Positions 38,441 through 59,385 of a stretch of 64,000 nucleotides of DNA are shown piece after piece. The DNA is from Micromonospora halotolerans. Lineage in GTDB: Bacteria; Actinomycetota; Actinomycetes; Mycobacteriales; Micromonosporaceae. Position 1 is the stretch's first letter. The number at the start of each line of letters is the position of its first letter. The stretch is from contig NZ_CP134876.1 of NCBI RefSeq assembly GCF_032108445.1, forward strand, positions 4,278,001 to 4,342,000, in the 5' to 3' direction. Position numbers and translations under genes: made by a program. The notes under the pieces were generated by a model. The model had not been told where the DNA came from. It made no database searches and saw only the letters and a program-made list of their open reading frames with translations.

Positions 38441-38487
38441 TCTCCCCACCGCGCCCTCCCCGCCGCGCCCGGTCCCACCCCGGACGC

Positions 38488-39256: not shown

Positions 39257-39275
39257 CCCTCTTGTCCTCGGTCCG

Positions 39276-39316: not shown

Positions 39317-39332
39317 TAGGACGGGGAATGAC

Positions 39333-41512: not shown

Positions 41513-41676
41513 GTCGCGGCGCCCGGCCACCACCGGCGGGACCCCGGGTGGCCGGGCGCCGCTCCCGGCGACGGCGAGCACGCCGCGCCGGGCCGCACGC
41601 GCGTCCCGCACCGCACGATCCAAGCACCATCCACGGGCCGGTGCCCGTGGTGAACACACGACGGGGGGTAGGTCCG

Positions 41677-42150: not shown

Positions 42151-42835
42151 CCTCGCGCGGCTGCGGGCGATGGTTGGACAGACGGATCCACGGGCCGCTG
42201 TAGGTGATCGACTGCCGCTGGTAGCTCCGATGGAGAGGTTGCTCGGCCAGAAGCTGCGTCGCGGCACGGTGATAGCGATCGAGGGCGATGCGGCGCGCTA
42301 CTCGCTGGCGATGGTGCTGCTGGCTGGAATATCCCGGGCAGGGGGTTGGTGCGGAGTGGTGGGTGCCCCCGAGTTCGGCTATGCCGCAGCCGAGGGGTAC
42401 GGCGTCCAGCTGGACGCGTTGGGCCTGGTCCCGCATCCTGGCCCGGAATGGCCGACAGTGGTCTCCGCCTTGTCCGCCGGCATGGCAGCTGTACTCGTCC
42501 GTCCACCCGAGCGGGTGTCCGGACAAATGGCGCGCCGATTGATCGCGAAGGCCCGTCAGGCCGGCTGCGTGGTGCTCACGATGGGATCTGCCTGGGAAGG
42601 CAGTGACGTGCGGTTGTCCGTCGTCCGGCGGGAGTGGGTGGGGCTCGGTCAGGGCAGGGGCCGTATCCGGCGGTGCCGGGTCACGGTGGTGGCTTCGCAT
42701 CGTCCCCATGTCAGGCTCGACATGTGGATGCCAGCCGATGACGGCACGGCTCAGGCGGTTCAAACCGTGTCGGACCTGGCGGGGCCGGCGGTAACAGCAA
42801 CGACCCAGGTTGGCATTGGAGCTCGGACGGCTTGA
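42143..42835 (+). CDS. second, complete imuA'-like RecA-fold protein
   Basis: 230 residues, homologous along its whole length to the truncated gene before it: LPLVAPMERLLGQKLRRGTVIAIEGDAARYSLAMVLLAGISRAG, WCGVVGAPEFGYAAAEGYGVQLDALGLVPHPGPEW, and the C-terminal REWVGLGQGRGRIRRCRVTVVASH. The ribosome site is AAAGGGAGG. As in other ImuA' proteins there is no intact Walker A lysine. ImuA' links ImuB and DnaE2 in SOS mutagenesis. Codon use is more mixed than in the backbone, suggesting it came with the island. Confidence 0.68.
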   Translation: MADLARLRAMVGQTDPRAAVGDRLPLVAPMERLLGQKLRRGTVIAIEGDAARYSLAMVLLAGISRAGGWCGVVGAPEFGYAAAEGYGVQLDALGLVPHPGPEWPTVVSALSAGMAAVLVRPPERVSGQMARRLIAKARQAGCVVLTMGSAWEGSDVRLSVVRREWVGLGQGRGRIRRCRVTVVASHRPHVRLDMWMPADDGTAQAVQTVSDLAGPAVTATTQVGIGARTA

Positions 42836-43214
42836 CCTAAAGAGCCCACTACCCGGAGTGGACCGCCTCGGTGGCGTTTCAGGAGTGACCAATCCATGGA
42901 CGAGTGCTACGATCGCCGATGCCTGCGACGCGTGGAGCGAAGCAGGATCGCCGCGGGGCTTGCTCCCCCGGAAGGCAACGTGGAGGCTCGCTTCCTCACG
43001 CCGCAGATCCTGTCTAGTACCGCGTTGCCGCCGAAGACCACATCGGGGCTTGCTCCGACAAGTTGGAGGGGATGCGCTCGACGGCCTCGGTCGTCCGACC
43101 TCCCGGGCACGGATCCCACACCACGTGTGGCACTCCGGGAGCGGACGAGACAATTAGCAGCCTCATCGTCTCGACCTCTTTCGGCGTGCCCGAGACATGC
43201 CAGGAGGCATCGAG
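42836..43214. other. 379-base intergenic region
   Basis: No convincing coding sequence on either strand; frames here are short or arginine/serine-rich shadows. It probably contains the promoter of the ParB-like/GIY-YIG operon; AGGAGG at 43202-43207 is that operon's ribosome site. Confidence 0.5.
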
Positions 43215-45242
43215 ATGACCACGACCATGGACGAGTCGGTCGCCGTCCACGACCACGTCCCGCCCCGCCCCGTGAGCAAGCTCCCGGAACTCGCGCCGAT
43301 CGCTGCGCGCCGCAAGGCAGCCGACAAGTTGATCGAGACCTTCAACCTCGACGAGGAGGCCGCGAGCTGCATCGCTGATGCAGTTGTCGATCCCGCCGAG
43401 CTGCGTCGCTCAATCGAGACCCCCACCCAGCTTGCCATCACCGGCGGGACGCTCCTCGCCGTACGGGCGAAGGTCTGGGCGCGCCGTACCCTGCCCGACA
43501 TCCGCAACCCGCGGATCGGAACCGCCCGTCGCCACCCAATCGCCGTCGAGCCCGGCACCGATGAGGAGTCCCGCTTCGCGCCGGTCGGTGACCCGACCAG
43601 CGAGGGCACGACCCCGCATCTCACGGTCGAGGTCGAGTCGGCCGAGCACATGCGATGGGCTTCCGGCCTGGCCGCTCGTGCCGTCATCGAGGCTAACGAC
43701 TGGCGGTACTCCATCCGCAACCAGGGCGTGCTCACCGAAGTGTGGCTGGTCGCCACCCGCTACGACCACACCGAGGACGGCAGCCCCGCGCTATGGGCTA
43801 TGACCACTGCTGAGGGTTCCTCACGCACCACCGCCGCCCACGACATCCTCGGGATCGGCAACAGCATCGACGCTGTCGTGACGGCCGCCTCCGACACCTA
43901 CATGCGCGGCCAGATCAAGGAGCTGAATACCGCCTTCGAGCAGGGCCCCACGACCAAGCAGTCCGAGGCGCTGCGCTGTGAAACGCTGCCGGCGCTCATC
44001 CTCGTCGGCTACCAGCCCCTCAGCGGAGGACCGGACCGGTTCTCGTCGGCGGTGAAATCGCTCGTGGCGCTGCGCCACGTCGACGCGCCGAAGGCGTGGG
44101 GCGACGGCCCCGAGATGGAGTCCCTCGCCGATGAGGCCCTGGCTGTCATGGAGGACCGCGGCATCCTCACGCCCCTGCGGCGCCGCTGGTTCGCCGGTTC
44201 GATCAGCCGCGCCCAGGCGAACGCCGCTCACTTGCCCACCGACCAGGCCATTCGGGCGGCCGAGATCATCGCACTGTTCACCAGCGACGACCAGCTCGTG
44301 CGCGACGCGATCCGCGACGCCGTCACGCGCCAGTCGACCCGCAAGCGGATCACGAAGAATGTTCGGGTCAGTCTCGCCGTGGCCCTGATCGTCCGGGCTG
44401 TCGCCGGCGAAGGCGCCAGCCCAGACCGGGTCCGCCGTTACATGCAACATGGATTCGTCGCCGTACGCGACAGGTACTTCAAGCCCACGCACCGCACCGC
44501 CGACGTGGTCGTCGCCGAAGCCTTGGACGAGCTGGACCAGGATCCTGCCGGTGACGCAGGGCCGGCGCGTCTCGAGCTCGCGGCCCGCTCGGCCTACCCG
44601 CTCATCGCCACGCTGTCACTGTGGGCCGACCGCGGCACGAAGGACAATCCGAACGCCGACGACCGGCGCCGCCCCGGCGAGGTCATCGACACCATGCTCA
44701 CGTCGAGGCTCGGCATCCGGCAGCTGCACCGGGCGATCGTCGACCATCACGAGGGCCGCTCAACGCTGCGGGCGGTGAATGAAGACGGCAGCATCCGCCG
44801 TACCGAGGACCGTGCCCAGGACCAGACCCTTAACGACGTCTACCTGCGCTCGACGTTCCCGAAGCCGGGCTCGCCGCAGCGGCCGACCAGCACCGACACC
44901 CCGGACGACGCGCTGCGGGACGCCGCCGCACAGCTCGGCGCTGCCGTGCGGGCTGTCGAGGACGCGATGGCCGCGATCCGTGGGGTCAAGGCGCTCGACG
45001 GCACCGACCACGTCGAGACGGTCGGGGTTGACCGTAACCACGTCAGGGAGTGGAAGAACGTCCTGGATGATGCGACCTCGGACCTGGAGTTCTGGGGCCG
45101 GATCTGGGAGCGGCGCAACCGCGGAGCCCGGGCTGCCGCTCGGCGCGATGACAACTGGGAGGCCGAGTACGACGACGATCCCGATCGCGCGGTCGAGGCG
45201 TGGGAGGACGAGGAAGCCGACGACCTGAAGGTTGTGTCGTGA
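43215..45242 (+). CDS. ParB/DGQHR-like protein of unknown function
   Basis: A 675-residue protein not recognised with certainty. ATG 43215 follows AGGAGG by 7 bases. Residues about 160-215 (IRNQGVLTEVWLVATRY ... LWAMTTAEGSSRTTAAHDIL) resemble the ParB/sulfiredoxin fold, in which a preference strand is followed by a DGxHR-type catalytic loop; here it reads EGSSR. The middle is helical (QLVRDAIRDAVTRQSTRKRITKNVRVSLAVALIVRAVAGEG), and the end is strongly acidic with a coiled-coil look. The stop overlaps the GTG of a GIY-YIG nuclease gene (GTGA), so the two form an operon. A defence or DNA-modification role is inference. Confidence 0.5.
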   Translation: MTTTMDESVAVHDHVPPRPVSKLPELAPIAARRKAADKLIETFNLDEEAASCIADAVVDPAELRRSIETPTQLAITGGTLLAVRAKVWARRTLPDIRNPRIGTARRHPIAVEPGTDEESRFAPVGDPTSEGTTPHLTVEVESAEHMRWASGLAARAVIEANDWRYSIRNQGVLTEVWLVATRYDHTEDGSPALWAMTTAEGSSRTTAAHDILGIGNSIDAVVTAASDTYMRGQIKELNTAFEQGPTTKQSEALRCETLPALILVGYQPLSGGPDRFSSAVKSLVALRHVDAPKAWGDGPEMESLADEALAVMEDRGILTPLRRRWFAGSISRAQANAAHLPTDQAIRAAEIIALFTSDDQLVRDAIRDAVTRQSTRKRITKNVRVSLAVALIVRAVAGEGASPDRVRRYMQHGFVAVRDRYFKPTHRTADVVVAEALDELDQDPAGDAGPARLELAARSAYPLIATLSLWADRGTKDNPNADDRRRPGEVIDTMLTSRLGIRQLHRAIVDHHEGRSTLRAVNEDGSIRRTEDRAQDQTLNDVYLRSTFPKPGSPQRPTSTDTPDDALRDAAAQLGAAVRAVEDAMAAIRGVKALDGTDHVETVGVDRNHVREWKNVLDDATSDLEFWGRIWERRNRGARAAARRDDNWEAEYDDDPDRAVEAWEDEEADDLKVVS

Positions 45243-45601
45243 CCCCTGTCCGCCTCGCGTCGCTCGCCGCCTATGCCGGTGACAAGCTCCATCCCGACGG
45301 GCCGTCTGGGCCGTTGCCCTTCAGCCCGCACATCAGCGTCAGCGCACGCAACGTGGTCTACCTCGTGTGCGGCTGGTCCGGAAGGATCCTCTACGTCGGA
45401 TCCACCACGGTCGGCGTCCGCACGCGCTTCTCTCAGCACCTCGCGAGCCTGACAAAGACGCTCGATTGGGCGAGCGTGTACATCATTCCGCTCACCGATG
45501 GCACCTCAGAGAGGGACGTGCGCCGGATCGAAGGACGCATCGGGCTCGCTGTTGGGCCTGAGCGGAACAAGGCGTTGCCTCGCATCGCCGTCGATTGCTG
45601 A
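45239..45601 (+). CDS. GIY-YIG nuclease domain protein
   Basis: A 120-residue single-domain protein. NVVYLVCGWSGRILYVGSTT is the GIY-YIG strand pair (VVYLV....LYVGST), with RTRFSQHLAS supplying the helix with catalytic Arg and DVRRIEGRIGLAV the metal-binding Glu. Such domains cut one DNA strand per subunit. The GTG overlaps the stop of the ParB-like gene, so it is made with that protein, which may supply specificity. A nuclease effector is a fair inference; the target is unknown. Confidence 0.75.
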   Translation: MTPVRLASLAAYAGDKLHPDGPSGPLPFSPHISVSARNVVYLVCGWSGRILYVGSTTVGVRTRFSQHLASLTKTLDWASVYIIPLTDGTSERDVRRIEGRIGLAVGPERNKALPRIAVDC

Positions 45602-45782
45602 ACTGCGTTGCGCTGGCCCTGGCCTTACCCAGGGCCAGCGCAACGCCGCGGCGATGCAGATGGGCAGATCTGACCGCGCTGGCCCGGCTTGCCTCATCCC
45701 GACTAGGGCGTGTCCTCCGCTGCTCAGGTTGCCGAGGCGTGGCAACCTGGCAGGGCGTAGATCAGCTGGGGGTGGACCTGCC

Positions 45783-46922
45783 ATGGCCGAAGCTTCGATC
45801 GAGGTTGCCGACGACGGCGGCGAGGGAGGTGTTGACGCTTCCTGGCGGGCGGCTGTCGTACGTCGAATGGCCGAGCTGCGCGAGTTCGCCAAGGGGCTGA
45901 GCGGGGCCGACTTCGAGTCGGGCGACTGGTTCACCAAGTTGTGCATGCATGTGCTGAGGACATACGCCGCCAAGGTCGATGCGGAGTACCTGCTGAGGCG
46001 GAATCCCGGCATGCCCGCGAACGCCTTGGTCGACCAGCGGATCAAGCTGGCGGCCCGGGAGGCCGCGATCGCGGGCGGAGTTGCGGGCAGTGTGTACACG
46101 GGTGTCTTCGTGTCCAAGCTGGGCCCACGTGGTGGCGCTGGCTCTTCCAGCTCTGCCACCCTCGCGGCTGGCGGTATGTCCGCCCTGGGCAACCTCGCGT
46201 ACGTCTCGCGGGTGCAGCTGAGGTTGGCCTGGGACATTGCGGTGCTCTACCGGGTGCCGCCTGACCTGAACGACCCGGAAGAGCTGGGAGAGTTCGTCCG
46301 GGTGGCGTTCGGGATCAAGGCTGGGGAGCTGCCTGTTGCGGGCGCGGTCACGGTGGCGCCGGAGATGACGCGCAGGGCCGTCAAGAAGGTTTACTCGGGG
46401 AAGAGGCTGGAAGCGGCGAAGCAACTGCCGATCATCGGTGAGGACCTGCTGCAGCGCAGGGTCATGAGAACAGCGATCCCGGGTGTTGTCGTCCCTCTCG
46501 CTGCGCTGGCGAGCCGCACCATGACCAAGGCCGCGGGCGAGCACGCGCGGTTGGTCTTCGGGGATAAGGCGAAGGTGTTGGAGCGGGCCGAGAGGCTGAT
46601 CAGACGGACCCGGCATGTGGAGTTGATGTTGTGGGTCGCCTGGCTGGTCATCGAAGCCGACCAGAAGAGAAGCGACGAAGAGTACCTGCTGATGAGGCAC
46701 CTGCTGAGGCTGGCGAAGGAGCAGCATCAGCACGTCGACGACCAGCTCGAGAAGGTCATCGCGGTTGAACCCGCCGAGGTGTGGGAGCGCGTGGCCGCCG
46801 CGACCGGGGAGCTGAGTGACGTCCTTGACGCTGCGCAGCAGGTAGCTGAGGTGGACGGGCCGGTCAACGAGCAAGAGAAGGCCGTCCTCGACGAGCTTCA
46901 CGACCGCTGCCGGCGGGACTGA
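45783..46922 (+). CDS. EcsC/TerB-like protein
   Basis: A 379-residue protein. The central part has a Gly/Ala/Ser-rich, weakly hydrophobic segment (AAIAGGVAGSVYTGVFVSKL, SSATLAAGGMSALGNLAYV). This is followed by RVQLRLAWDIAVLYRVPPDLNDPEELGEFVRVAFG, similar to the EcsC family. The C-terminus (VAWLVIEADQKRSDEEYLLMRHLLRLAKEQHQHVDDQL ... VDGPVNEQEKAVLDELH) has the acidic EF-like pattern of the TerB tellurite-resistance fold. TerB-type domains occur in stress and phage-defence modules at the membrane; the role here is not established. ATG 45783; the 181-base gap before it shows nothing. Confidence 0.6.
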   Translation: MAEASIEVADDGGEGGVDASWRAAVVRRMAELREFAKGLSGADFESGDWFTKLCMHVLRTYAAKVDAEYLLRRNPGMPANALVDQRIKLAAREAAIAGGVAGSVYTGVFVSKLGPRGGAGSSSSATLAAGGMSALGNLAYVSRVQLRLAWDIAVLYRVPPDLNDPEELGEFVRVAFGIKAGELPVAGAVTVAPEMTRRAVKKVYSGKRLEAAKQLPIIGEDLLQRRVMRTAIPGVVVPLAALASRTMTKAAGEHARLVFGDKAKVLERAERLIRRTRHVELMLWVAWLVIEADQKRSDEEYLLMRHLLRLAKEQHQHVDDQLEKVIAVEPAEVWERVAAATGELSDVLDAAQQVAEVDGPVNEQEKAVLDELHDRCRRD

Positions 46923-47707
46923 CGCCGCCGTCCCGACCTCAGCCGACCTGATGCACGGGCGTCGGTGGACTGGTGGATCAGTGGGCGGGGTGCAGGATGC
47001 GGCCGGCGGTGGCGAGCAGCTCCGCCGGGCGAACGTGTCAGCGATGTGGTGCAGGCCGGCAGCTTCGCGCAGCTGAACGTCGGTGTCATGGTGGGTCGGG
47101 GATCAGGGTCGCGGCGATCTGCTCGGCCGGTTCGGCGGTGCTCAGCCCGCCGACGTGTAGGTCGTTCTCGAGCCACAAACCTGCGTCCGAGCACAACTGC
47201 TCCTCTGGACCAGTACAACGTTCGCCCTGTTGTTGCCTGGCGTTAGCTCGTGCTGGCTAGCGTGGTTTGCTCAGTCTCCGGCGACGCCGGTCGCCATCGC
47301 CTCGGCCAACCGATCCAGGCGCTACTGCCGAAGCCGTCCGACTCGATCAAACTCTCACAGTCTGCTGAGGGCGCCGTCGTATGGGTCAACGTGCACAACG
47401 TGCACAGCCAGGTACATCGTGCAGATGGCGGAGGCACGTCCGAGCCTTCAACCGACCGCGAGCCGGCCGGCCAGCGGACTCAGCGAGACCCAAAGGAACG
47501 AGCGGGCGGCCATCGTGACGTTCCGTTACCAGCGAGCCGGCACCGACCGTGTGGCGTATCCGCGTCTGCCGATGCCAGCTCGTCGAGATGACCAACAACG
47601 ACGTGCACTCACCGCGCTCGACGTGCAGTCAGGGCCGGTCCTCTAGGCAGAAGCCATAGCGGGTCCCTTCGCCGGCCTAGCCCGCGTTTCCACAGAAGCC
47701 GCAGGGG
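46923..47707. other. 785-base region without intact genes
   Basis: Only decayed coding traces are seen (see the pseudogene at 46979). Bases 47240-47700 show no frame on either strand with convincing protein-like composition. Confidence 0.5.
46979..47208 (-). pseudogene. decayed gene remnant
   Basis: Reading the minus strand, protein-like stretches appear in different frames: EEQLCSDAGLWLENDLHVGG with LSTAEPAEQIAATLIPDPP, then TDVQLREAAGLHHIAD, then AELLATAGRILHPAH and a stop. This looks like the end of a gene interrupted by frameshifts. Family not recognised. Confidence 0.35.
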
Positions 47708-47875
47708 TCAGAACCTATGAGGCCCTCGGTACTCACAGTCGCGGTAGCCGGGTGGAGCACCCCACGATTTTCCGCACGAGCAGAAGTAGACGTGGGTGTG
47801 GACGCCCGGGTAGATCATCGCGTCGCGCCGGACCGAGTGGCCGAGGCGTAGGGCGTGCCACAGGGCTCGGATCAC
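47708..47875 (-). CDS. small Cys/Tyr/Trp-rich protein
   Basis: A 55-residue frame starting at GTG 47875: VIRALWHALRLGHSVRRDA, then YPGVHTHVYFCSCGKSWGAP, then GYRDCEYRGPHRF. The C-S-C-G-K core and aromatic content look like a small zinc-binding or treble-clef-like peptide. AAGGTGG lies upstream at moderate distance. It is too short for routine gene calling. No family recognised. Confidence 0.45.
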   Translation of the reverse strand: MIRALWHALRLGHSVRRDAMIYPGVHTHVYFCSCGKSWGAPPGYRDCEYRGPHRF

Positions 47876-47938
47876 AGCTGCCACCTTACTGGGTGTCCCT
47901 ATTCGTCATCGCGCGCTGGGCATCCGTGTTCTCCGGAC

Positions 47939-48145
47939 ATGCCTGCGGGTTCAGGCAGCCGGGCGGAGGACGCCGCCCGCCGGGTCGGCGCCGATGTGGC
48001 CGCCATCGGCGAGGTCGAGCTGATGGCGTTCGCCGGTGCGAACTGCCAGGGCGAAGCTGACGAGTGGGCGCTGATCGAATGGCGGGCGATCCGGTTGGCA
48101 ATGGTGCTGTCCGGGCTTGACTTCGGCGGTCCGCTGCCCCGATGA
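47939..48145 (+). CDS. small hypothetical protein
   Basis: A 68-residue frame with high third-position GC: PAGSGSRAEDAARRVGADVA, AAIGEVELMAFAGANCQGEA, DEWALIEWRAIRLAMVLSGL. It is followed after four bases by a 19-residue frame (48150-48209) with LHRNLGDLMRM, possibly its displaced C-terminus. Likely coding or recently decayed; function unknown. Confidence 0.35.
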   Translation: MPAGSGSRAEDAARRVGADVAAIGEVELMAFAGANCQGEADEWALIEWRAIRLAMVLSGLDFGGPLPR

Positions 48146-48352
48146 GGCTGTGGCTGTGGACGATTCGCTGCACCGCAACCTCGGTGATCTGATGCGGATG
48201 ACCGGCTGAGGGCGCTACGTCGACACCTCGCCGCGTTCGTAGTGGTCCCCAGCCATATCCGTCGGTTTTTCCGCTAGGACTACGGAAACCCGTACGACTG
48301 GTCCGAAGGCGACGATGTCGAAATGGTCGGTGGCCGATCGTAGGATGCGCTC

Positions 48353-49351
48353 GTGGCGCTGATCTATGCATTTGAAGACGAGGACGGCAGTTGGCACGGC
48401 AACCCTGGCAGGACCTATCGAGGGATGGGCCGGGCGACGTACGCGACGTTGACCTTTTGCCCTGGCCCCGCCGAGCCGGGTGCCGACAGCAGCTTCGCCG
48501 GGCAGACGTTGCGCGTCGCGGTGGCTAGCATTGACGAGCAGGTGGCCGGCGAGATCGCGTATCGGCTCGACAACGGTACGGTGCACTACGCAACCGACGA
48601 GGTCGACGAGCTGCTGTTCGGCATCGACGTGCACCGGCTGCCCATCAGCTCCTGGCCACCGGTCGTGCACCATCCGGTGCCAGCTGCTCCCGCCACACCA
48701 GCGGAGCCGGATCCGACGCCGCTGGTGCTGTCGTGGGAGGTCAGCGACGCCGGGCGGCACTACACGCTGACCCTCACCAGGGGCATGGTCGGCCCGACCG
48801 TCGAGGTGACCGGCGCCGACACCGAGGGCCAGCTCATCGCCCAGCTCGCCGGACACCTGCCGGGCGACGATCTGTCCCTGGTGGCGCGGGTGTTCCTTGC
48901 CGCCGTGGCGAACCCCGGCGTGTCGACACGCGTTCCGGCGGCCCGCCGTCCCCGATCCTGGTCGGAGCAGGAGACCGCGTACGTGGCCAGCCGGCACCGC
49001 GACGGCGCCGATGCCGAGGCGATCGCCGTGGAGCTGGGGCGGACCGCCAACAGCATCCGGTACAAGCTGCACGCCCTGGGCCTGGCCCCGTTTCCCGGGC
49101 CGAACACCAGCCGCCCACCGGCACCCCCGCGAACGCCGGCGTACACGATGGAAGACCTGCGCCAAGTCCACTCGAACTCGCACAGGCCGTGGGAGCCCGA
49201 GGACGACGAACGGCTCGCCCGACGCGCCGCAGAAGGCGCGAGCATCTCCGAGTTGATGGAGGAGTTCGGCCGTAACCACGGCGCGATCACCTCCCGCCTG
49301 GCACGGGTACAGCCCCCGGTCGCCCCCAGCCCGCCGCCAGCCGCTCCCTGA
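48353..49351 (+). CDS. protein with two SANT/Myb-like HTH domains
   Basis: A 332-residue protein. Residues 1-100 are an uncharacterised domain (LIYAFEDEDGSWHGNPGRTYRG ... VDELLFGIDVHRLPISSWP). Two helix-turn-helix units with tryptophan-initiated Myb pattern follow: RSWSEQETAYVASRHRDGADAEAIAVELGRTANSIRYKL and RPWEPEDDERLARRAAEGASISELMEEFGRNHGAITSRL, separated and followed by proline-rich linkers. Probably binds DNA. It lies directly before the reverse transcriptase gene, same strand, 176 bases apart, and could regulate it (inference). Confidence 0.6.
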   Translation: MALIYAFEDEDGSWHGNPGRTYRGMGRATYATLTFCPGPAEPGADSSFAGQTLRVAVASIDEQVAGEIAYRLDNGTVHYATDEVDELLFGIDVHRLPISSWPPVVHHPVPAAPATPAEPDPTPLVLSWEVSDAGRHYTLTLTRGMVGPTVEVTGADTEGQLIAQLAGHLPGDDLSLVARVFLAAVANPGVSTRVPAARRPRSWSEQETAYVASRHRDGADAEAIAVELGRTANSIRYKLHALGLAPFPGPNTSRPPAPPRTPAYTMEDLRQVHSNSHRPWEPEDDERLARRAAEGASISELMEEFGRNHGAITSRLARVQPPVAPSPPPAAP

Positions 49352-49469
49352 GCCCACCAGGCGGCCGCCCGCAGGCATCGATAGCCGGTTCCTCGCGTAC
49401 CTGACGCGGCTAGTCCGCTGAGGGGACCAGCGGGCGCGGGAAAGTAGCCAACGGAACGCCACAAACTAC

Positions 49470-49529
49470 ATAGCCGGTCTCAATGGCCGTTGCGGCCACC
49501 TGAGTGCGGCGTGCTTTCATACCGGCTAT
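49470..49529 (+). promoter_or_regulatory. inverted repeat enclosing the RT start
   Basis: ATAGCCGGT (49470-49478) pairs perfectly with ACCGGCTAT (49521-49529), and the right arm includes the first two bases of the ATG at 49528. An inner GGCC-GTTGC-GGCC hairpin (49485-49497) sits in the loop. Folded RNA would bury the start codon, or this may be part of a structured RNA. Confidence 0.45.
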
Positions 49530-51102
49530 GCGATCCGTCCCTCTAGACATCCTCTCTCGCCTGGATCTGGAAGGGGCCGCGCGACGGGAGGCCGACGCCA
49601 CGGAGCCGCTGATCCCGTCGTCGCCCGGCACCGACCAGTTGAAGGACAACGCAGCTCCCTTCGCCTCCTGGCTCGGCGGCCAGCTCCGGGCCGGGCTGCC
49701 GACCGGCCGCGGCCTGGTAATCGCCGTCGCCAAGCCGGTGACCGGCAGCCGGCCGGTCGCGATCTGGGGATTCGCCGAGCGGGTCACCTACCGGGCACTC
49801 ACCGACCTGCTCATGACCGAGGCGAAACACGAGGTGGACCGCTCGCCCGAACGGTACCGGGACTTCATCTCCGCGCCGATGACCTACGCCGAGGAGCGCG
49901 GCACGCGGCCGGACGACAACGAGGATGGCTCCCCCTTCGCCACCCCCTGGCCCGCCGATGCGATCATCCAGTACGTCGTGAAGGCCGACCTCGCCTCGTT
50001 CTATGACTACATCGACCACGACATCCTCGGCCGTGAACTTCTAGTTCGCACCGGAGACCATGCCGCCGTCGAGTGTCTGCTCGACCTCCTTGGCGAGGTC
50101 CAGGGCCGGCGGTACGGGCTGCCCCAGTTGCTCGAGCCTTCGGATCGTCTCTCCGATCTCTACGCGGGCCGGGTGCTGCGCGCGCTGCGCCGGAAGCAGT
50201 GGGCGGCCTGGCGCTTCAACGATGACTTCCGGATCGCCGTCGAGACGTTCGAGGATGCCAAGCGCGCGCTTGATGATCTGGCGGCGGCCGCTCGCGACAA
50301 CGGCCTTGTGCTGAACGAGTCCAAGACCCGCACTCCGTCAATCACCAGCTACTGGCACGAAACAGTGATTAGTCAGGTCGACGCCCATCTGCCGAGGGAC
50401 GGGGCCGAGCACGACCCAGCTGACTTTGTGGCCGACTACACTGAAGGGGCCCGCGACAGCGACCCCGAGTGGGCCCTCAGCTTCCTCGAGTCGACCGTCA
50501 CACCCCGCGGCCTAAGAGCTGGGGTGCAGGCCGAAGGACAGACAAACCTGCGCGATGTCGACCGCTTCGGCATCCGGTACATCCGACGTGCGCTGATCAG
50601 ACTGGCCGATCCCGGGGAACCGCGCGCGCTCTCGGTGCTGTCGAAGACGGAAGGCATCGTTGCATTCGTCGCGTCCGCGACGCCATACGTGCTGCGCTAT
50701 CTGCGGGCCATGGTCGCGCTCGACCGGTCGGCGGTGACCCGCATTGTTGAGGCCATCACTGCGGACGTCAGCCTCAGCAGCTGGCAACGGCTCTGCCTAC
50801 TTCGCGCAATCGGTGATCTGGACTTGCTCGACTCGGAACCACTCTCCACCTGGGTCGAGGGCCACCGCGCGCAGCGTTTCGAGCCCGTCGTGCGCGCCGA
50901 AGCCGCCCTGGCCCTCGCGGCCGTGAACCGAATCGAGGCGCAGGAGATCACCCGCGGCCTCGACGAGGAACCGTCGGCTCTAGCCTCCTGGTATTTGGTG
51001 GCCCTGCAGCGACTGCACGACTGCGGAGCCGTCAACCGGGAGACCTGCGACGCCGTCCGCGAAGAGGGCGGCCTGCACGAGACGCTCCTGGTCCGGTCAT
51101 GA
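49528..51102 (+). CDS. reverse transcriptase of the Abi/UG (DRT) class with helical C-terminus
   Basis: A 524-residue RT. Motifs in order: WGFAERVTYRALTDLL (near residue 80); VVKADLASFYDYIDHDIL with the first catalytic Asp, D154; YGLPQLLEPSDRLSDLYAGRVLRAL at residue 196, where the usual GLPQG reads GLPQL; AAWRFNDDFRIAV with the catalytic pair D232-D233 in an unusual FNDD version of YxDD; and ARDNGLVLNESKTR. Residues 340-524 are all-helical and repeat-like (LRYLRAMVALDRSAVTRIV, QRLCLLRAIGDLDLLDSEPL, AEAALALAAVNRIEAQEI), matching the alpha-repeat extension of AbiA/AbiK-type RTs. There is no maturase or retron feature. The stop overlaps a HEPN gene. An anti-phage role is inference. Confidence 0.8.
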   Translation: MRSVPLDILSRLDLEGAARREADATEPLIPSSPGTDQLKDNAAPFASWLGGQLRAGLPTGRGLVIAVAKPVTGSRPVAIWGFAERVTYRALTDLLMTEAKHEVDRSPERYRDFISAPMTYAEERGTRPDDNEDGSPFATPWPADAIIQYVVKADLASFYDYIDHDILGRELLVRTGDHAAVECLLDLLGEVQGRRYGLPQLLEPSDRLSDLYAGRVLRALRRKQWAAWRFNDDFRIAVETFEDAKRALDDLAAAARDNGLVLNESKTRTPSITSYWHETVISQVDAHLPRDGAEHDPADFVADYTEGARDSDPEWALSFLESTVTPRGLRAGVQAEGQTNLRDVDRFGIRYIRRALIRLADPGEPRALSVLSKTEGIVAFVASATPYVLRYLRAMVALDRSAVTRIVEAITADVSLSSWQRLCLLRAIGDLDLLDSEPLSTWVEGHRAQRFEPVVRAEAALALAAVNRIEAQEITRGLDEEPSALASWYLVALQRLHDCGAVNRETCDAVREEGGLHETLLVRS

Positions 51103-51695
51103 CCCTGGAACCCGTGATGCTCGACATCACCGAGGGCGCCCTAGAAGAGCTGACAACGACCTATGCCAGGCACAACGCCACGACGACCGGCCGGCCGCCG
51201 GCCCGATCCCTGCGCCGTTACCGAGACGGAATCGTCGGCGACGCTGCTGCGGCTGACCGGGCGGCCTGCTGGCTACGCCTGGTCAGCGTCGTCGAGATCT
51301 ATACGGAGACTCTTCTGCGGCGTCTCTCCGATGAACAACCGGGGCGGGCGCCGCGCGGTTGGAGTGACGTCACGGAGTCGTTGAAGCGCCACCACAACAT
51401 TGACGTCGCAGCCGTCGAGGGTTGGGCAAGGTTGGATGCCAGCTTCACCGTTCGCAACGCTGTCGCCCACGGGCTGGGACGCTTCACCGCCAGGCAGATC
51501 GAAAAGGGGGAGCCCCGCAAAATGCGCCTCATCGCCGTGCAGGTGCGCGACGGAGCGGTGGTGATTACTCCCGAGGCCCTCGCTGCCTGTGCCGAAACCT
51601 GCCGGGTCTTCGTCACTGCGCTGGACGCGTGCTCGAGGCCGTCCACGGCATTCGGACCAGCGCAGACGGAGGCTTGCCGACGCTTATCTGGCTAG
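51099..51695 (+). CDS. HEPN-domain protein paired with the RT
   Basis: A 198-residue helical protein. ASFTVRNAVAHGLGRFTARQ contains R119-x4-H124, the RxxxxH motif of HEPN ribonucleases, preceded by a long helix (ACWLRLVSVVEIYTETLLRRLSDE) as in RiboL-PSP-HEPN and MAE_28990-type proteins. Its ATG overlaps the RT stop (ATGA), so the two are translationally coupled. In AbiA the RT, helical repeats and HEPN are one chain; here the HEPN part is a separate gene. It is the probable toxic RNase effector, held in check or triggered by the RT (inference). Confidence 0.75.
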   Translation: MTLEPVMLDITEGALEELTTTYARHNATTTGRPPARSLRRYRDGIVGDAAAADRAACWLRLVSVVEIYTETLLRRLSDEQPGRAPRGWSDVTESLKRHHNIDVAAVEGWARLDASFTVRNAVAHGLGRFTARQIEKGEPRKMRLIAVQVRDGAVVITPEALAACAETCRVFVTALDACSRPSTAFGPAQTEACRRLSG

Positions 51696-51775
51696 GCGCC
51701 AGCCGGGCGATCGATTGAGCCGCATCTGCTGGAGTCGGATCAACGACGCGTGGGCGGCCCTAGGAAACGGTGCCG

Positions 51776-51820
51776 CTAGCCTTTCTGCAAGGCCGGTGCG
51801 TGTCGCTACGGAAAGGCTAG
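51776..51820. terminator. inverted repeat after the HEPN gene
   Basis: CTAGCCTTTC (51776-51785) and GAAAGGCTAG (51811-51820) are perfect 10-bp arms with a 25-base loop, 80 bases after the HEPN stop. It could be a terminator, a small structured RNA or a recombination remnant. Confidence 0.45.
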
Positions 51821-51876
51821 ATTCGCCGCGGGGGCTTCTAGCCGGCTCCGAAGTCCGGCGCGCAGACCGTGAGGTC

Positions 51877-51933
51877 ATGCTCGGGTCGCTGCTCTTCATC
51901 CACGGCATCGGCAATGGGGATAAGCGCATGTAA
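51877..51933 (+). pseudogene. remnant of an alpha/beta-hydrolase N-terminus
   Basis: An 18-codon frame with LGSLLFIHGIGNGDKRM then TAA. The LLFIHGIGNG word is the first strand and oxyanion loop of alpha/beta hydrolases; nothing of the rest follows, so it looks like a truncated leftover at a module boundary. Confidence 0.4.
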
Positions 51934-52011
51934 GGCGAGACCGGCAGCTGGCCCGGGACGGCGTCCAACATTCGTCAGGCCCTGGGGCCGTCGATCAAGG
52001 GATGAACCGCG

Positions 52012-55000
52012 ATGGCTGACGACGCGTCCTCGACGGTCCCGCCCCGGGCGGCCGCCCCATCGATCACGATGCCCAAGGGCGGCGGTGCGGTTCGGGCGAT
52101 CGGGGAGAAGTTCGCCGCCAACCCGGTCACCGGCACCGGCACCCTGACGATTCCGCTCCCGACCAGCGCAGGCCGCTCCGGCTTCGGGCCCGAGCTGCGC
52201 CTGGCGTACAACTCCGGCACCGGGCAGACCGCGTTCGGCCTGGGCTGGGACGTCGATCTGCCGCGGATCACCCGCCGGACCGACAAGGGCCTGCCGACCT
52301 ACGACGACGCCCGGGACGCCGACGTCTTCGTCCTCTCCGACACCGACGACCTGGTGCCGGAACTGGACGCGGACGGCCGCCTGGTGCGGCGCGACAGCCC
52401 GCAGGGCGATTTCCGGGTGACCCGCTACCGACCGCGGGTGGAGAACCGGTACGACCGGATCGAGCGCTGGACCGGGCCCGACGGGCAGATCCACTGGCGC
52501 TCGATCAGCCGGGACAACGTCACCACCGTGTACGGCCGCGACGGCAACTCCCGGATCGCCGACCCGGCCGACCCGCTGCGGCGCATCTTCAGCTGGCTGA
52601 TCTGCGAGTCGTACGACGACCGCGGCAACGCGATCGAGTACCGATACGCCGAGGAGGACGACGCCGACGTCCCACTGTCCGCCGCCCACGAGCGCAACCG
52701 TCCGCCCGCCGCCCGTACCACGAACCGATACCTCAAGTCGGTCCGCTACGGCAACCGGATCAGCCGCCTCGCGCCGCCGCGCCCGGTACCCAAACGGCCC
52801 TGGCTGTTCGAGCTGGTCTTCGACTACGGCGAGCACGACACCGGCGGTTGGGTGTGCCGCGCCGACCCATTCTCCACCAACCGCGCCGGCTTCGAGGTCC
52901 GCGCCTACCGGCTCTGCCAGCAGGTGCTGATGGTCCACCACTTCGCCGGCGAGCCCGGGGTCGGCGACGACTGCGTGGTCCGGTCGCTGCGGCTGGCCTA
53001 CCGCGGCGACGCCCAGCGCGGCGAGCCGGCCGGGTCGCTGCTGGCCTCGACCACGCTGACCGGCCACCGCCGCTCCGGTGCCGGCTACGTCCACCGCAGC
53101 CTGCCCTCGCTGGAGTTCACCTACACCACCGCCACCGCCCACCCCGAGGTACACGACCTGGAGCCGGCGGGTGTGGACACGGCCGGCGCCGAATGGGCCG
53201 ACCTGGACGGCGACTCGATCAGCGGCCTGCTCACCCGGTACGCCGGCGCCTGGTACCACCGGGCGAACCAGGGCGGCGGACGGCTGGCCCCGCCGCGCCG
53301 CCTGCCCAGCATGCCGTCGGCCGGCGACCGCGGGCAGCTCATGGACCTGGCCGGCGACGGCCGGCTCGACGTCGTCGACTTCGCCCGCCCCGTCCCCGGT
53401 TTCGCCGAGCGAACCGACGACGGCGACTGGTCGCCATGGCACAAGTTCGGCGCGCTGCCGGCCCGCGCCTGGGACGACCCGAACCTGCACTTCGCCGACC
53501 TGGACAGCGACGGCCTGACTGACGTGCTGGTCACCGAGGTCGACGCAATCGTCTGGCACCGGTCGCTGGGGGAGGAGGGCTTCGGCGAGGCGATCAGGGT
53601 GCCGCTCCCACCGGACGACGACACCGGCCCACGGCTGCTGTTCGCCGACGGCTCCCAGTCGGTGTACGTCGCCGACATGACCGGCGATCGCCTGCCCGAC
53701 GTGGTCCGGGTCCGCAACGGCGAGATCTGCTACTGGGCCGGCCTGGGCCGTGGCCGGTTCGGGCCGAAGACGGTCATGGACGGCTCGCCGCTGCTCGACC
53801 ACCCGGACCGCTTCGACCAGCGCCGGGTACGCCTGGCCGACCTGGACGGCAAGGGCCCAGCCGACCTGCTCTACCTGGGCGCCGACGGCGCCGTCCGATA
53901 CACCAACCTGATGGGCAACGGCTGGTCCGGCCCGGACCGGTTGCCGCTGGTCCCACCGGTCGACGACGTGTCGGTGGTGGACCTGCTCGGCTCGGGCACC
54001 GCCTGCCTAATCTGGTCCACGGCGGCCGGCGGCCGCCGCCGGGTCCGGTACGCCGACCTGACCGGCCAGAAGCCGGATCTGCTGGAACGGGTGACCAACA
54101 ACTTCGGCGGCGAGACCACGATCAGGTGGACCACCTCCACCCACTGCTGGCTGCGCGACGACGCGGAAGGCCGCCCGTGGCTGACCCGGGTGCCGTTCCC
54201 GGTCCACGTCGTCGAACAGGTCGAGACCGTCGACCGGGTCGCCCGCACCCGCTTCGTCACCCGCTACCGCTACCGGGACCCCTGGTTCGACCCGGACGAC
54301 CGGGAGTTCCGCGGCTTCGCCTTGGTGGTGCAGGACGACGCCGAGGAGATCGCCGCGCTCGGCCGCACCGACCGGCTCGCGGCGAACGAGGACCCCGCCC
54401 ACCGGCTGCCGCCAACCCGTACCCGCAGCTGGTTCCACACCGGCGCGTTCCTCGGCCGCGACCGACTCTCGAAGCTCTTCGCCGAGGGCTACTACCCGCC
54501 GCCCGAGCACGCCACCCCGGCCGCGCTGAGCTGGCTGCTCGACGACACCCCGCTGCCCGGCAGGCTGCCCGAGGGGGAGGAGCGGGAGGCCTGCCGCGCG
54601 CTGAAGGGCCGGCTGCTGCGGCAGGAGGTGTACGCCCTCGACGGCACCGAGCGGGAGCCGCACCCGTACACGGTGGTGGAGCACAACTACGGCATCCGCA
54701 CGCTGCAGGCCCCGGTCGCCGGGCGCGCCGGGGTGTTCGCCGTGGATCCGCGGGAGACGGTCACCGCCACCTGTGAACGCCAGCCGGACGACGCCCGGGT
54801 CAGCCATGAGGTGGTGCTGGACGTCGACCCGTTCGGCACGGTGCTGCACTCGGTGACGCTCGCCTACGGGCGATCCGCCGAGGACTCCACCCTGCCGCCG
54901 CGCACCCGGGCGGTGCAGGCGACCACCCTCGCCCTCGAAACCCGGGTCGAGGTGACCGGGAAGGTCGACGAGGACGGCGCGTACCGGGCGCCGGTGCCGT

Positions 55001-58000
55001 ACGACACCAAGCGGTTCCAGCTCAGCGGCCCGGCGATCGACGGCGCACGGCCGCGACTGGACCGTGCGTACGTGAAGAAGATCCTCGCCGGGCTCACCCG
55101 CCGCCTGACCGGACGCGAACGCGTCCGGTTCTTCGCCGACGACCTGAGCGGGCCGCTCGCCTGGGGCGAACGGCAGTCGCGTGGCCTGGTGCACGAGACG
55201 TACCGGCTCGCGCTGCCGGACGCGCTGCGTGACGAGCTCTACGGCGTCCGGGTGACCGGCGCCGACATGACCGCGGCCGGCTACGTCGCCGCGGACGGCG
55301 GCTGGTGGGCGCCGTCCGGCACGGTCCGCTACGGCGCGGACCTGGACGACACCCGGCAGCACTTCTTCGTGCCGCGCTCGTACGTCGACCCGTTCAACGC
55401 GGTCACCGCCGTCGAGTACGACGACTACGACCTCCTGCCGGTACAGACCGTCGACCCGCTCGGCAACACCGTCACGGTGGGTGAGCGGGACGCGGCGGGC
55501 GGCCGTACCCCCGGCATGGACTACCGGGTGCTCGCGCCGACGCTGACCACGGACCCCAACCGCAACCGCACCGCGGCGCTCTTCGACACGCTCGGCATGG
55601 TTGCCGCGATCGCGCTGCTCGGCCGGGTGGGCGCGGAGACCGGCGACCGGCTCGACGGCATCGACCCCGACCTGCCGGACACCGCGATCACGGCGTTCTG
55701 GACCGATCCGTACGGCGCCGCCACCGCACTGCTCGGCGAGGCGACCAGCCGTACGGTCTATGACCTGGACGCCTACCGGCGCACCGCCGCCGGCGCCGAC
55801 CCGCAGCCCACGGGGGTGGCGACCATCGCCCGCGAGAGGCACGTCAACGACCCGCCCGCCGCCGGTCCACCGCAGGTGACCTTCGCCTACGCCGACGGCG
55901 GCGGCCGCGAGCTGCAGCGCAAGCTGCCCGCCGAGCTTGACCCGGCGATGCCGGGCCCCGGTCCGCGGCCGCCACGCTGGGCCGGCACCGGCTGGGTGGT
56001 CCTCGACAACAAGGGCAATCCGGTACGTCGCTACGAGACATTCTTCACGCCCCGGCACACCTTCGAGTTCGCCGTCATGCACGGCGTCAGCCAAGTGCTC
56101 TGCTACGACCCGCCGGGCCGGGTGGTGGCCACGTTCCACCCCCACCACACCTACGACAAGGTGGTCATCGGCGCCTGGCAGCAGCAGGCCTGGGACGCCA
56201 ACGACACCGCGGGCCTTCCCGACGGCGCCGGGCGCCCGGCCGGCGACCCCACCGGCGATCCGGATGTGGCCCGCTTTGCCGCTGCCTTGCTCACCGCCGA
56301 CTACCTGCCCACCTGGATGCGGCGGCGGCTCAACGGCGGCCTGGGCCAGCGGGAGGCCGACGCCGCTAAACGGACCCTGCCGCATGCCGGCACGCCACTG
56401 ACGACCTGCCTGGACCCGCTCGGGCGCCCGGTGCTCACGGTGGCGCACAACCGCACCCCCGACGAGGCCGGCGGCCCGCCGGTGGACACCCTGCACCGCA
56501 CCCACACCGTTCTCGACATCCTCGGCAATCACCTGGAGGTGGCCGACTGCACCGACGGCACGCCCGGGCCGGGCGATGGCACCGCAGACCGGACGCTGGC
56601 CCGCATCGACCACGACCTGCTTGGCAACCCGCTGCGCGAGCACGGCGTGGACACCGCGGCGCGGCTGCTGCTGGTAGACGTCGCCGCCGAATCGGTCACC
56701 GGGTGGGAGGTCGTGGACGAAGCCGGTGCGGAGCGGGCGCGGACCACGAGCCGAGACCAGCTGCGCCGGCCAGTCGAGGCGATGGTCCGGGAGAGCGGCC
56801 AGGACCGAGTCGTGCACCGGATCGAGTACGGCGAGCAGGCCTCCGATCCGGAGGCGGGGAACCTGCGCGGGCGGGTGTGGCGGGTGTACGACGGCGCGGG
56901 TCGGGCCGAGTCCGCGTACGATTTGCACGGCAACGAGGTGCGCGCGACGCGGCGGCTGTTCGCCGGGGCGGCGTACCAGGACGCCGTGGACTGGGCCGCC
57001 GGGCCGGCGCTGGAGGGTCACGAGTACCTCGGCGCCGCCCGATTCGACATCTCCGGCCGCAGGTACGAGCAGACCCATCCGGACGGGACGGTGGTGCGCC
57101 ACGAGTACAACCGGGCGGGTCTGCTCAGCGGTGTGGCGGCGACGTTGGCGCCGTCCGGCCGGGAACTGACCGTGGTGGCGAGCGTCGAGTACGACGCCAA
57201 GGGCCAGCGCACCGCGATCACCTACGGCAACGGCACGACGACGACCCTGACGTACGACCCGGATACGCTGCGGCTGCGGACGGTTAAGAGCAGCGGCGGG
57301 GCACAGGATCTCGGGTACGTCTACGACCCGGCCGGGAACGTCACCCACGTCGCCGACGCCGCCCAAGCGTCGGTGTTCCGGCTGAACACGCTGGTGGAGG
57401 CGGCCACCGACTACACGTACGACGCGCTGTACCGGCTCGTCGTGGCGCACGGCCGCGAACACGTCGCCCCGCTCACCCCGACCGGCGCCAGCGACGCGTC
57501 CCGGGTGAACCCGGCGGACCCCAACGCCCTGGGCCGCTACCGCGAGCGGCACACCTACGACGTCGTCGGCAACCTCACCGAGCTGCGGCACCGCGGCACT
57601 GACCCAGCGCATCCGGGATGGACCCGCACGTTCGCCTACCAGGCGCAGAGCCGCCTGCCCGGGACGCCGGCCGGCGTGCACGGCAATCGGCTGACCGCCA
57701 CGGAGACAGCGAACGGCGGGCTGGACGCACAGGCGTACCACCATGACATGCGCGGCAACATGGACATCCTGCCGCCGCTGACGCTGGTCCGCTGGGATCA
57801 CGACGACCGGTTGCGGGCCACCTCCACGCAGAGCGTCGGGCCTGGGCTGGTGCCGGAGACCACGTACTACTGCTACGACCAGGGCGGCGAACGGCTGCGG
57901 TGGGTGCGCGACGGGCAGGTGGCGGCCCCTTCCTCGGCAGCGCCCGTGGACGAGCGGATCTATCTCGGCGAGTTCGAGGTGTACCGGTCATTCGGCGGGA

Positions 58001-59385
58001 CTGGCGCGGTGACGCTGGAACGCACCACGGTGCACGTCATGGACGGTCCACGACGGATCGCGCTGATCGAGACGCGGGTGGACCCGGGCGCGGCCGCCGA
58101 CCCGGACCGGCTGGTGATCCGCTTCCAGTACGCGAACTACCTGGGCTCGGCGGTGCTGGAACTGGACGACCAGGGCGGGTTCGTGTCCTACGAGGAGTAC
58201 TACGCGTACGGGTGCACGGCGCTGGTGCACTGGCGGGCCAACGCGCCGCCGAAGCGGTACCGGTTCACCGGCAAGGAACGCGACGCGAACGGCCTGTACT
58301 ACCACGGCGCCCGCTACTACGCGCCCTGGCTCTGCCGCTGGACCGCCCCCGACCCTGAGCCCGCACCCAACCTGTACCGCTACTGCGACGGCAACCCGGT
58401 CATGTTGTCGGATCCCAGCGGGCGCAGCCCGAACGGGAACGAGTGGGTGGCCAGCCCGGCCTTCCCTGAGGACATCGAGAACCTGCACCAGGTGCTCGGA
58501 CCCGACTACGACCAACTGCCGCAGGCGCTGGATCTGGAAACCGGAACGTCATCGCCGGTGCTGCCGAGCGAAACGATGATCGTCCGGAAGCAGCTGAATG
58601 AGGGAGGCGCCTTTTTCCTAGCCGGGAAGTATCAGGCCCTGACGGTCCACGAATACTTCATGATCGAGAAGTCGGACGTGTTCGTCGCCAACCGCGACGG
58701 CTCGTTCACGGTGCACAGCCGGCCACAGATAACTTCGCTCGGAAGGATGGCCCCCGCGCTCCGGGACACCCCGATATCGGAGCAACTGCAACTCGCCGTC
58801 GAGTTGGGGCTGATGTTCTTCCCGTGGGACGAGGCCGCAAAGGCGCTCCCGGGCGTCGCCGCGGCGGCCAAGGGTGGCGGCAAAGCAGCACAGGTGGCCG
58901 TGTCGGGAGTCCATGAGTCCTTGCTTCAGCAGGCGCAGGTTGTCGCCCTCCGGTCCACCGAGGAGCAGGCTCGGTTCCTTGCCGAGCTCGTCCCCGGGCT
59001 GGAGCGGGAACAAGCCATAAAAATCCTGGAGAGCGCCTTCAAAAACGATTCTTCCGCGGTATTCGGCGGGAGCCGTATCCGGGGGAATTTTCATATGGGA
59101 AGCGACCTCGATGTGGGCTTCAGCAAGCTCACCGCGAATCAGGCGACGAAGGTCACGGCCCGCCTCTCGAGAGCGGGGCCGTTGGGGTTGGAGCAAAACG
59201 TTCGCATCGTCACGGGAAATATTTCGAGAAATATTCCCCACATCGTCTCGCCGGAGGAATTCTTCCAGCGTATCGGTATCCGCGCGATGCAGGACGCCCA
59301 GGCAGGCCGGGTCTTCCTGCCCTCCGGGTCGGTCACGGCCGTTCCCGGAGGAAGGATCTTCTACATCCCACCCGGCATCCGTTGA
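52012..59385 (+). CDS. Tc toxin TcB-TcC fusion (SpvB/RHS) with nucleotidyltransferase-like tip
   Basis: 2457 residues. An SpvB-type N-terminus (GTGTLTIPLPTSAGRSG, LRLAYNSGTGQTAFGLGW) is followed by VCBS/FG-GAP-like repeats (GDRLPDVVRVRNGEICYWAG). TcB middle domains come next (near residue 730: VVEQVETVDRVARTRFVTRY ... DREFRGFALVVQ), then RHS/YD repeats, which form the cocoon that stores the toxin. The RHS core ends YYHGARYYAPWLCRWTAPDP ... NPVMLSDPSGR, with D2134 where the RHS aspartyl protease normally cuts. The last 320 residues are the variable toxin: helices, then FGGSRIRG (2351-2358) and SDLDVGF (D2365, D2367), the GS...DxD pattern of nucleotidyltransferases. No signal peptide. Confidence 0.85.
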   Translation: MADDASSTVPPRAAAPSITMPKGGGAVRAIGEKFAANPVTGTGTLTIPLPTSAGRSGFGPELRLAYNSGTGQTAFGLGWDVDLPRITRRTDKGLPTYDDARDADVFVLSDTDDLVPELDADGRLVRRDSPQGDFRVTRYRPRVENRYDRIERWTGPDGQIHWRSISRDNVTTVYGRDGNSRIADPADPLRRIFSWLICESYDDRGNAIEYRYAEEDDADVPLSAAHERNRPPAARTTNRYLKSVRYGNRISRLAPPRPVPKRPWLFELVFDYGEHDTGGWVCRADPFSTNRAGFEVRAYRLCQQVLMVHHFAGEPGVGDDCVVRSLRLAYRGDAQRGEPAGSLLASTTLTGHRRSGAGYVHRSLPSLEFTYTTATAHPEVHDLEPAGVDTAGAEWADLDGDSISGLLTRYAGAWYHRANQGGGRLAPPRRLPSMPSAGDRGQLMDLAGDGRLDVVDFARPVPGFAERTDDGDWSPWHKFGALPARAWDDPNLHFADLDSDGLTDVLVTEVDAIVWHRSLGEEGFGEAIRVPLPPDDDTGPRLLFADGSQSVYVADMTGDRLPDVVRVRNGEICYWAGLGRGRFGPKTVMDGSPLLDHPDRFDQRRVRLADLDGKGPADLLYLGADGAVRYTNLMGNGWSGPDRLPLVPPVDDVSVVDLLGSGTACLIWSTAAGGRRRVRYADLTGQKPDLLERVTNNFGGETTIRWTTSTHCWLRDDAEGRPWLTRVPFPVHVVEQVETVDRVARTRFVTRYRYRDPWFDPDDREFRGFALVVQDDAEEIAALGRTDRLAANEDPAHRLPPTRTRSWFHTGAFLGRDRLSKLFAEGYYPPPEHATPAALSWLLDDTPLPGRLPEGEEREACRALKGRLLRQEVYALDGTEREPHPYTVVEHNYGIRTLQAPVAGRAGVFAVDPRETVTATCERQPDDARVSHEVVLDVDPFGTVLHSVTLAYGRSAEDSTLPPRTRAVQATTLALETRVEVTGKVDEDGAYRAPVPYDTKRFQLSGPAIDGARPRLDRAYVKKILAGLTRRLTGRERVRFFADDLSGPLAWGERQSRGLVHETYRLALPDALRDELYGVRVTGADMTAAGYVAADGGWWAPSGTVRYGADLDDTRQHFFVPRSYVDPFNAVTAVEYDDYDLLPVQTVDPLGNTVTVGERDAAGGRTPGMDYRVLAPTLTTDPNRNRTAALFDTLGMVAAIALLGRVGAETGDRLDGIDPDLPDTAITAFWTDPYGAATALLGEATSRTVYDLDAYRRTAAGADPQPTGVATIARERHVNDPPAAGPPQVTFAYADGGGRELQRKLPAELDPAMPGPGPRPPRWAGTGWVVLDNKGNPVRRYETFFTPRHTFEFAVMHGVSQVLCYDPPGRVVATFHPHHTYDKVVIGAWQQQAWDANDTAGLPDGAGRPAGDPTGDPDVARFAAALLTADYLPTWMRRRLNGGLGQREADAAKRTLPHAGTPLTTCLDPLGRPVLTVAHNRTPDEAGGPPVDTLHRTHTVLDILGNHLEVADCTDGTPGPGDGTADRTLARIDHDLLGNPLREHGVDTAARLLLVDVAAESVTGWEVVDEAGAERARTTSRDQLRRPVEAMVRESGQDRVVHRIEYGEQASDPEAGNLRGRVWRVYDGAGRAESAYDLHGNEVRATRRLFAGAAYQDAVDWAAGPALEGHEYLGAARFDISGRRYEQTHPDGTVVRHEYNRAGLLSGVAATLAPSGRELTVVASVEYDAKGQRTAITYGNGTTTTLTYDPDTLRLRTVKSSGGAQDLGYVYDPAGNVTHVADAAQASVFRLNTLVEAATDYTYDALYRLVVAHGREHVAPLTPTGASDASRVNPADPNALGRYRERHTYDVVGNLTELRHRGTDPAHPGWTRTFAYQAQSRLPGTPAGVHGNRLTATETANGGLDAQAYHHDMRGNMDILPPLTLVRWDHDDRLRATSTQSVGPGLVPETTYYCYDQGGERLRWVRDGQVAAPSSAAPVDERIYLGEFEVYRSFGGTGAVTLERTTVHVMDGPRRIALIETRVDPGAAADPDRLVIRFQYANYLGSAVLELDDQGGFVSYEEYYAYGCTALVHWRANAPPKRYRFTGKERDANGLYYHGARYYAPWLCRWTAPDPEPAPNLYRYCDGNPVMLSDPSGRSPNGNEWVASPAFPEDIENLHQVLGPDYDQLPQALDLETGTSSPVLPSETMIVRKQLNEGGAFFLAGKYQALTVHEYFMIEKSDVFVANRDGSFTVHSRPQITSLGRMAPALRDTPISEQLQLAVELGLMFFPWDEAAKALPGVAAAAKGGGKAAQVAVSGVHESLLQQAQVVALRSTEEQARFLAELVPGLEREQAIKILESAFKNDSSAVFGGSRIRGNFHMGSDLDVGFSKLTANQATKVTARLSRAGPLGLEQNVRIVTGNISRNIPHIVSPEEFFQRIGIRAMQDAQAGRVFLPSGSVTAVPGGRIFYIPPGIR

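Follow-up and report, generated by a model that had tools for sequence, protein, structure and literature searches.

A UG22-type reverse transcriptase coupled to a HEPN gene in Micromonospora halotolerans: a defence-associated module with a putative DNA-controlled RNase

In a 64,000-nucleotide stretch of Micromonospora halotolerans DNA (contig NZ_CP134876.1, positions 4,278,001 to 4,342,000; hereafter the window), we studied a reverse transcriptase (RT) gene that is followed and overlapped by a gene for a HEPN protein. Sequence comparison gives good support to the view that this locus is a real, intact and typical two-gene defence-associated reverse transcriptase (DRT) module of the UG22 plus RTasHEPN kind, as the RT has UG22 as its best profile along its whole length and an RTasHEPN gene next to it. 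The pairing itself is already catalogued, with models for both parts under DRT in PADLOC-DB 2.0.0 (2023), and an earlier prediction made from this DNA alone (the original prediction) overstated its novelty in calling it a distinct DRT architecture. We found no experimental account of the UG22 plus RTasHEPN pair in the open-access literature. The UG/Abi classification behind the RT_UG22 name is reportedly that of Mestre et al. 2022.

The RT gene (49528..51102 with its stop codon, forward strand) starts with ATG and encodes 524 residues, with an alternative in-frame GTG at 49504 that would give 532; its identity comes from the open reading frame (ORF) and from RT_UG22, RVT_1 and fold matches. 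Against PADLOC-DB, RT_UG22 was the best profile (E 1.3e-131, residues 6-521 on profile positions 3-473 of 476) and UG21 the runner-up (3.8e-26); Pfam gave RVT_1 (5.4e-9) and NCBIfam below-cut-off matches only. The nearest named protein relatives are from Micromonospora (86-90% identity), and the genome is a single contig of 6.96 Mb. The three aspartates that had been proposed as catalytic, Asp154, Asp232 and Asp233, were the same in all 58 aligned homologues and in all 24 intact HEPN-linked RTs, and the polymerase site, judged from these alignments, is intact. Asp154 opens residues 154-159 (49987..50004, forward strand), which end in an invariant Tyr159 that we take, by analogy with HIV RT, to be the steric-gate position. 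The other two belong to the FNDD motif at residues 230-233 (50215..50226, forward strand) which, like GLPQL at residues 197-201 (50116..50130, forward strand), is present as originally described. Phe at position 230 is not unusual, since it occurs in 9 of the 24 HEPN-linked RTs (Tyr in 14, Thr in one). Position 201 is Leu in 13 of them, Val in five, Gln in three, Met in two, Ala in one and Gly in none, GxPQG being found in four HEPN-less RTs of a sister group. Immediately ahead of the RT ATG, at about 49500-49527 in the window and also in relatives, is a short conserved sequence (GTGCTTTCATACC-like), which is perhaps a promoter or marks a leaderless start.

The HEPN gene (51099..51695, forward strand; 198 residues) begins at an ATG inside ...TCATGA and, as predicted, shares 4 nucleotides with the RT gene. 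RTasHEPN was its sole match in PADLOC-DB (E 5.1e-34), Pfam gave no family at E ≤ 1, and searching PDB sequences with the profile of the HEPN protein returned weak matches to unrelated proteins only. The protein belongs to the HEPN superfamily as defined by a profile or fold with R-x4-6-H, and its active-site motif R119-N-A-V-A-H124 (51453..51470, forward strand), already noticed in the original prediction, is conserved: R119, H124, N120, E66 and T130 do not vary among the 24 partners of intact RTs, in a family whose members can share as little as 22-33% identity with the HEPN protein of the window, and the R, N and H of the motif are invariant in all 31 sequences of a second HEPN alignment. 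In 18 of 24 loci the two genes could share 4 nucleotides in this way, and this coupling, together with the adjacency in relatives, agrees with the idea of a HEPN protein encoded by a separate, coupled gene. Moreover, RT and HEPN distances were strongly correlated (r 0.95, 0 of 10000 permutations; r 0.73 over 242 deep pairs), and both genes were under purifying selection in the five pairs tested (ratio of nonsynonymous to synonymous rates, dN/dS, 0.16-0.24 for the RT and 0.13-0.29 for HEPN). The two genes, on this sequence evidence, are co-diversified.

Across the genus (160 genomes), the UG22 RT at E ≤ 1e-100 and RTasHEPN at E ≤ 1e-5 were each found in 10 genomes, and these were the identical ten (hypergeometric 4e-16, a value that ignores relatedness); in seven further genomes the RT matches were weaker (7e-36 to 9e-22) and RTasHEPN gave no match. 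Across the family (354 genomes), UG22 at E ≤ 1e-40 occurred in 20 genomes and at 21 loci, HEPN adjoining 20 of these loci in 19 of the genomes. The exception, in genome G1112, is a distant UG22 RT, and loss of the HEPN gene beside close RT homologues, which had been named in advance as evidence against the module, was not seen. The six matches at 1e-40 in a class sample (394 genomes) were the window's own, those of G354, G641 and G611 with HEPN, that of G897 without, and that of G684, which is UG32; a phylum sample (396 genomes) added two UG22 loci without HEPN (G378 and G117), and two Rhodococcus plasmids carry both genes. RT matches weaker than 7.8e-75 (phylum sample) or 7.9e-110 (genus) were not counted as UG22, and only that of G684 (1.1e-42 in the class sample) was classified further. 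In total, HEPN adjoins 25 of the 29 UG22 loci examined, one of the 25 (G021) having a broken RT. Genome G943 carries two divergent UG22-HEPN modules (L102, L103).

The four UG22 RTs without HEPN (G897, G378, G117 and G1112) still have UG22 as best profile and keep GxPQG, the Gly of which is replaced in all 24 intact HEPN-linked RTs. For the four GxPQG RTs (L082, L084, L085, L111), no HEPN partner was found by searching the whole genome with the RTasHEPN model and the 400 nucleotides around the RT for the motif, and they may possibly have a different sort of partner. A tree of 43 RTs puts the 24 that are HEPN-linked on one side of a branch with a Shimodaira-Hasegawa-like approximate likelihood ratio (SH-aLRT) support of 91, obtained by a quick method and with long branches flagged, which provisionally suggests a HEPN-linked grouping with the four GxPQG RTs as its sister group.

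The predicted RT structure (mean predicted local distance difference test, pLDDT, 90.2) resembled DRT4, DRT6, AbiK and Abi-P2 across its whole length in structure comparison, which together with the RT_UG22 profile bears out the original view of a defence-type RT. From about residue 334 to 524 (50527..51099, forward strand) the model's secondary structure and the whole-length fold matches indicate an all-helical C-terminal domain, again as foreseen, and the predicted model has an RT domain followed by an all-helical Abi-type domain, the layout of class 1 UG/Abi RTs, whose C-terminal part is described (cited in PMC12489045) as HEAT-like helical repeats. Tyr304 (codon 50437..50439, forward strand) would be the best candidate for protein priming, because it is conserved (Tyr in 55 of 57 aligned homologues) and lies in a disordered linker (pLDDT under 50 at residues 302-309), where the priming tyrosines of AbiA sit.

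Other assignments were considered and rejected. The split AbiA-like system of the original prediction did not hold up, as the UG22 profile scored far better than that of AbiA (1.3e-131 against 8.2e-6) and RTasHEPN is the model that fits the partner; the RT is not of the AbiA clade, and HEPN is neither in the same chain nor of the AbiA motif type (R-x4-H against R-x6-H). A group II intron maturase was rejected on a TIGR04416 score far below the cut-off (43 bits, cut-off 300) and on the lack of an Rfam match, and a diversity-generating retroelement (DGR) on direct repeats, the longest in 47000-52100 being 37 nucleotides at 76%. As the prediction had it, no retron, maturase or DGR features were found, and the best profile is not one of retrons, DGRs or group II introns, so that this second piece of evidence named in advance against the module did not turn up either. 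As to an origin in viruses or phages, searches with three peptide patterns found no relative in viral contigs, and tblastn gave 0 matches in 50,697 phage records.

We hypothesise, and consider somewhat probable, that the module is a class-1-like DRT in which protein-primed untemplated DNA controls a separate HEPN RNase. From its family, the coupling of its genes, their conservation and the predicted folds, we infer priming, RNase activity, gating and an abortive outcome in the following way. The RT would make single-stranded DNA (ssDNA) without a template or a non-coding RNA (ncRNA), primed on one of its own tyrosines, with Tyr304 in the flexible linker as best candidate. The HEPN protein would dimerise to form an RNase and be held by the RT-DNA complex; phage proteins acting on the RT-bound DNA would render the HEPN dimer active, and it would then cut RNA, tRNA being the best guess, so that the infected cell stops growing. 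We lean modestly towards DNA that restrains HEPN rather than switching it on. In the published accounts drawn on here, DRT1 DNA adducts are proposed both to activate a fused nitrilase and to serve as its safety catch, and in retron-Kva2 the RT and its multicopy single-stranded DNA (msDNA) sequester a separate HEPN tRNase. In G021 (locus L074), the RT gene is split by an insertion, about 1.5 kb inside it and IS3-like by reading, that carries two transposase-like ORFs on the reverse strand, and the downstream HEPN ORF is open; since this ORF is open with the RT split, constitutive toxicity of HEPN is weakened as an idea, and polarity could explain the case.

A bolder version, which we regard as a rather doubtful possibility, is that the module is an RNA-less, two-gene analogue of a retron, with random protein-linked DNA as both sensor and safety catch for the separate HEPN RNase. 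If this were true, RNA cleavage would be unleashed whenever a phage protein touched or degraded the DNA, the module would be the first class-1-type DRT using an RNase in trans in the literature consulted here, and the loss of the GxPQG Gly in the HEPN-linked clade would mark a change from a toxic DNA product to a DNA-gated effector. The residues on which these ideas can be tested are D232/D233, Y304, Y275, R119/H124 and L201.

The original prediction also placed the pair in an island with other defence-like genes, which was not the case for the eight window ORFs tested in 32459-49348 (no PADLOC match at E ≤ 0.01) and was the case for the flanks of some relatives. Window neighbours include an ImuA'-like DnaE2 mutagenesis accessory gene (42143-42835, forward strand; NF058630), proteins of unknown family, an ORF with weak helix-turn-helix-like matches and, downstream, a gene for a 2457-residue protein with SpvB, TcdB_mid and RHS domains (52012-59385, forward strand), followed by a large ORF running off the window (59404-63999, forward strand). 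An ARAGORN tRNA call at 52959-53054, inside the RHS-type gene and with no amino acid assigned, is probably false. The region appears accessory, because G468, a genome with the same species label, is without both the RT and HEPN genes and has no DNA match to the 42.0-49.45 kb flank. G024 matches a 1-kb piece of the window (48306-49353) at 83% identity. In the relatives' flanks (99 ORFs), among the 25 families listed of the 127 matched, three ORFs matched pPIWI-RE, two PprDinG, two RmrA, one a cyclase model and one a JetD model. Proteins scanned singly gave pPIWI-RE and a PDC-M01A/PtuA-type ATPase in L008 (M. parva), pPIWI-RE and PprDinG in L009 (M. lutea), pPIWI-RE in L074, and RmrA in L010 and L107, with no PADLOC match for 10 of the 17 proteins examined in this way; L009 and L074 may not be independent, because they are near-identical just upstream of the RT. 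As a control, 29 window genes matched 35 PADLOC families, each in one member. A kinase-like ORF (27064-29043, reverse strand), probably an ordinary Ser/Thr kinase, matched 33 families when scanned alone (e.g. PD-T4-6, 1e-117), and since 33 of the control families come from it, generic PADLOC matches do arise among ordinary genes.

Could the HEPN protein instead be structural, as in AbiA, dimerising or activating the RT while untemplated DNA alone defends the cell, as the toxic or sponging ssDNA reported for DRT4 might? In the published AbiA work, the protein dimerises through its HEPN domain, polymerase activity is lost when HEPN is deleted, RNase activity went unobserved, and R581A/H588A variants retain defence; DRT4 is reported in a review to work as a single gene, and G021 keeps its HEPN ORF despite the broken RT. 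However, R119, N120, H124 and E66 are invariant in every partner despite the divergence noted above, the spacing of the motif differs from that of AbiA, and a purely structural role would not need a catalytic pair, so we consider this explanation unlikely. A stress or plasmid-maintenance toxin pair without an anti-phage role is less likely still. Such a pair would fit with the presence of the module on plasmids, with the annotation on one of them of a RelE/ParE gene at a distance of about 7 kb and with the window neighbours that lack PADLOC matches, but the DRT and Abi structures that the RT resembles are antiviral proteins in the literature drawn on, the pPIWI-RE, PprDinG, PtuA/PDC-M01A-type ATPase and RmrA genes adjoin the module in relatives, and its distribution is patchy (10 of 160 genus genomes).

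Least probable of all, in our judgement, is a class-2-like DRT or a retron with an unrecognised adjacent ncRNA as template. Flank conservation was compared with shuffled windows in alignments of 8 pairs of related loci, leaving out a ninth pair, G021-G477, which is near-identical throughout. The first 50 nucleotides upstream of the RT exceeded 99% of shuffled windows in 4 of the 8 pairs, and a very small RNA there is possible; profiles built from the RT domain alone also match DRT9 and group II RTs. Beyond these 50 nucleotides (to 500), no upstream window exceeded 99% of shuffled ones in the 8 pairs, and downstream of HEPN lone windows did so in 2 of 8, at different places. Moreover, Rfam gave no match at E ≤ 1 in 47000-53000 (6001 bases), and the resemblance of the RT model to DRT2 and DRT9 lies mainly in the RT domain, over about 240-256 residues. 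We thus found no conserved flank of ncRNA size in these alignments.

The closest known system is PADLOC's RT_UG22 plus RTasHEPN, to which both window proteins score best and which shows the same gene order and coupling in relatives; we found no difference of weight for the window locus, and the RT_UG22 model is also the best fit for the four HEPN-less sister RTs that keep GxPQG. Further comparison draws on PMC12596737, PMC13213688, PMC8934634, PMC3710099, PMC13092281, PMC12632851, PMC13174585, PMC12483538, PMC11077055, PMC13405049 and PMC13275509. AbiA of Lactococcus shares the RT, helical domain and HEPN, and its priming tyrosines lie in the RT/helical linker, but it is a single chain whose R-x6-H HEPN is reported there as inactive and dispensable. 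DRT4/UG15 and DRT6 share the whole-length predicted RT fold, and DRT4 is reported to make template-independent ssDNA, whereas both are described as single-gene systems with no HEPN partner. What DRT1 would share is DNA made without a template and primed on protein, which reportedly gates an effector; in its case this is a nitrilase fused in cis, and DRT1 belongs to class 3. The type IX retron Kva2, as described in a preprint, resembles the proposed mechanism in that a HEPN dimer with a gene of its own is sequestered by an RT-DNA complex and cuts tRNA once triggered; unlike the window pair, it has an ncRNA/msDNA and a winged-helix protein, and its HEPN is without the canonical motif. If the HEPN protein studied here is catalytic, the module would join two principles that the literature consulted here shows only separately, the untemplated protein-primed DNA of Abi, DRT4 and DRT1 and a HEPN RNase held in trans by an RT-DNA complex, as in the type IX retron.
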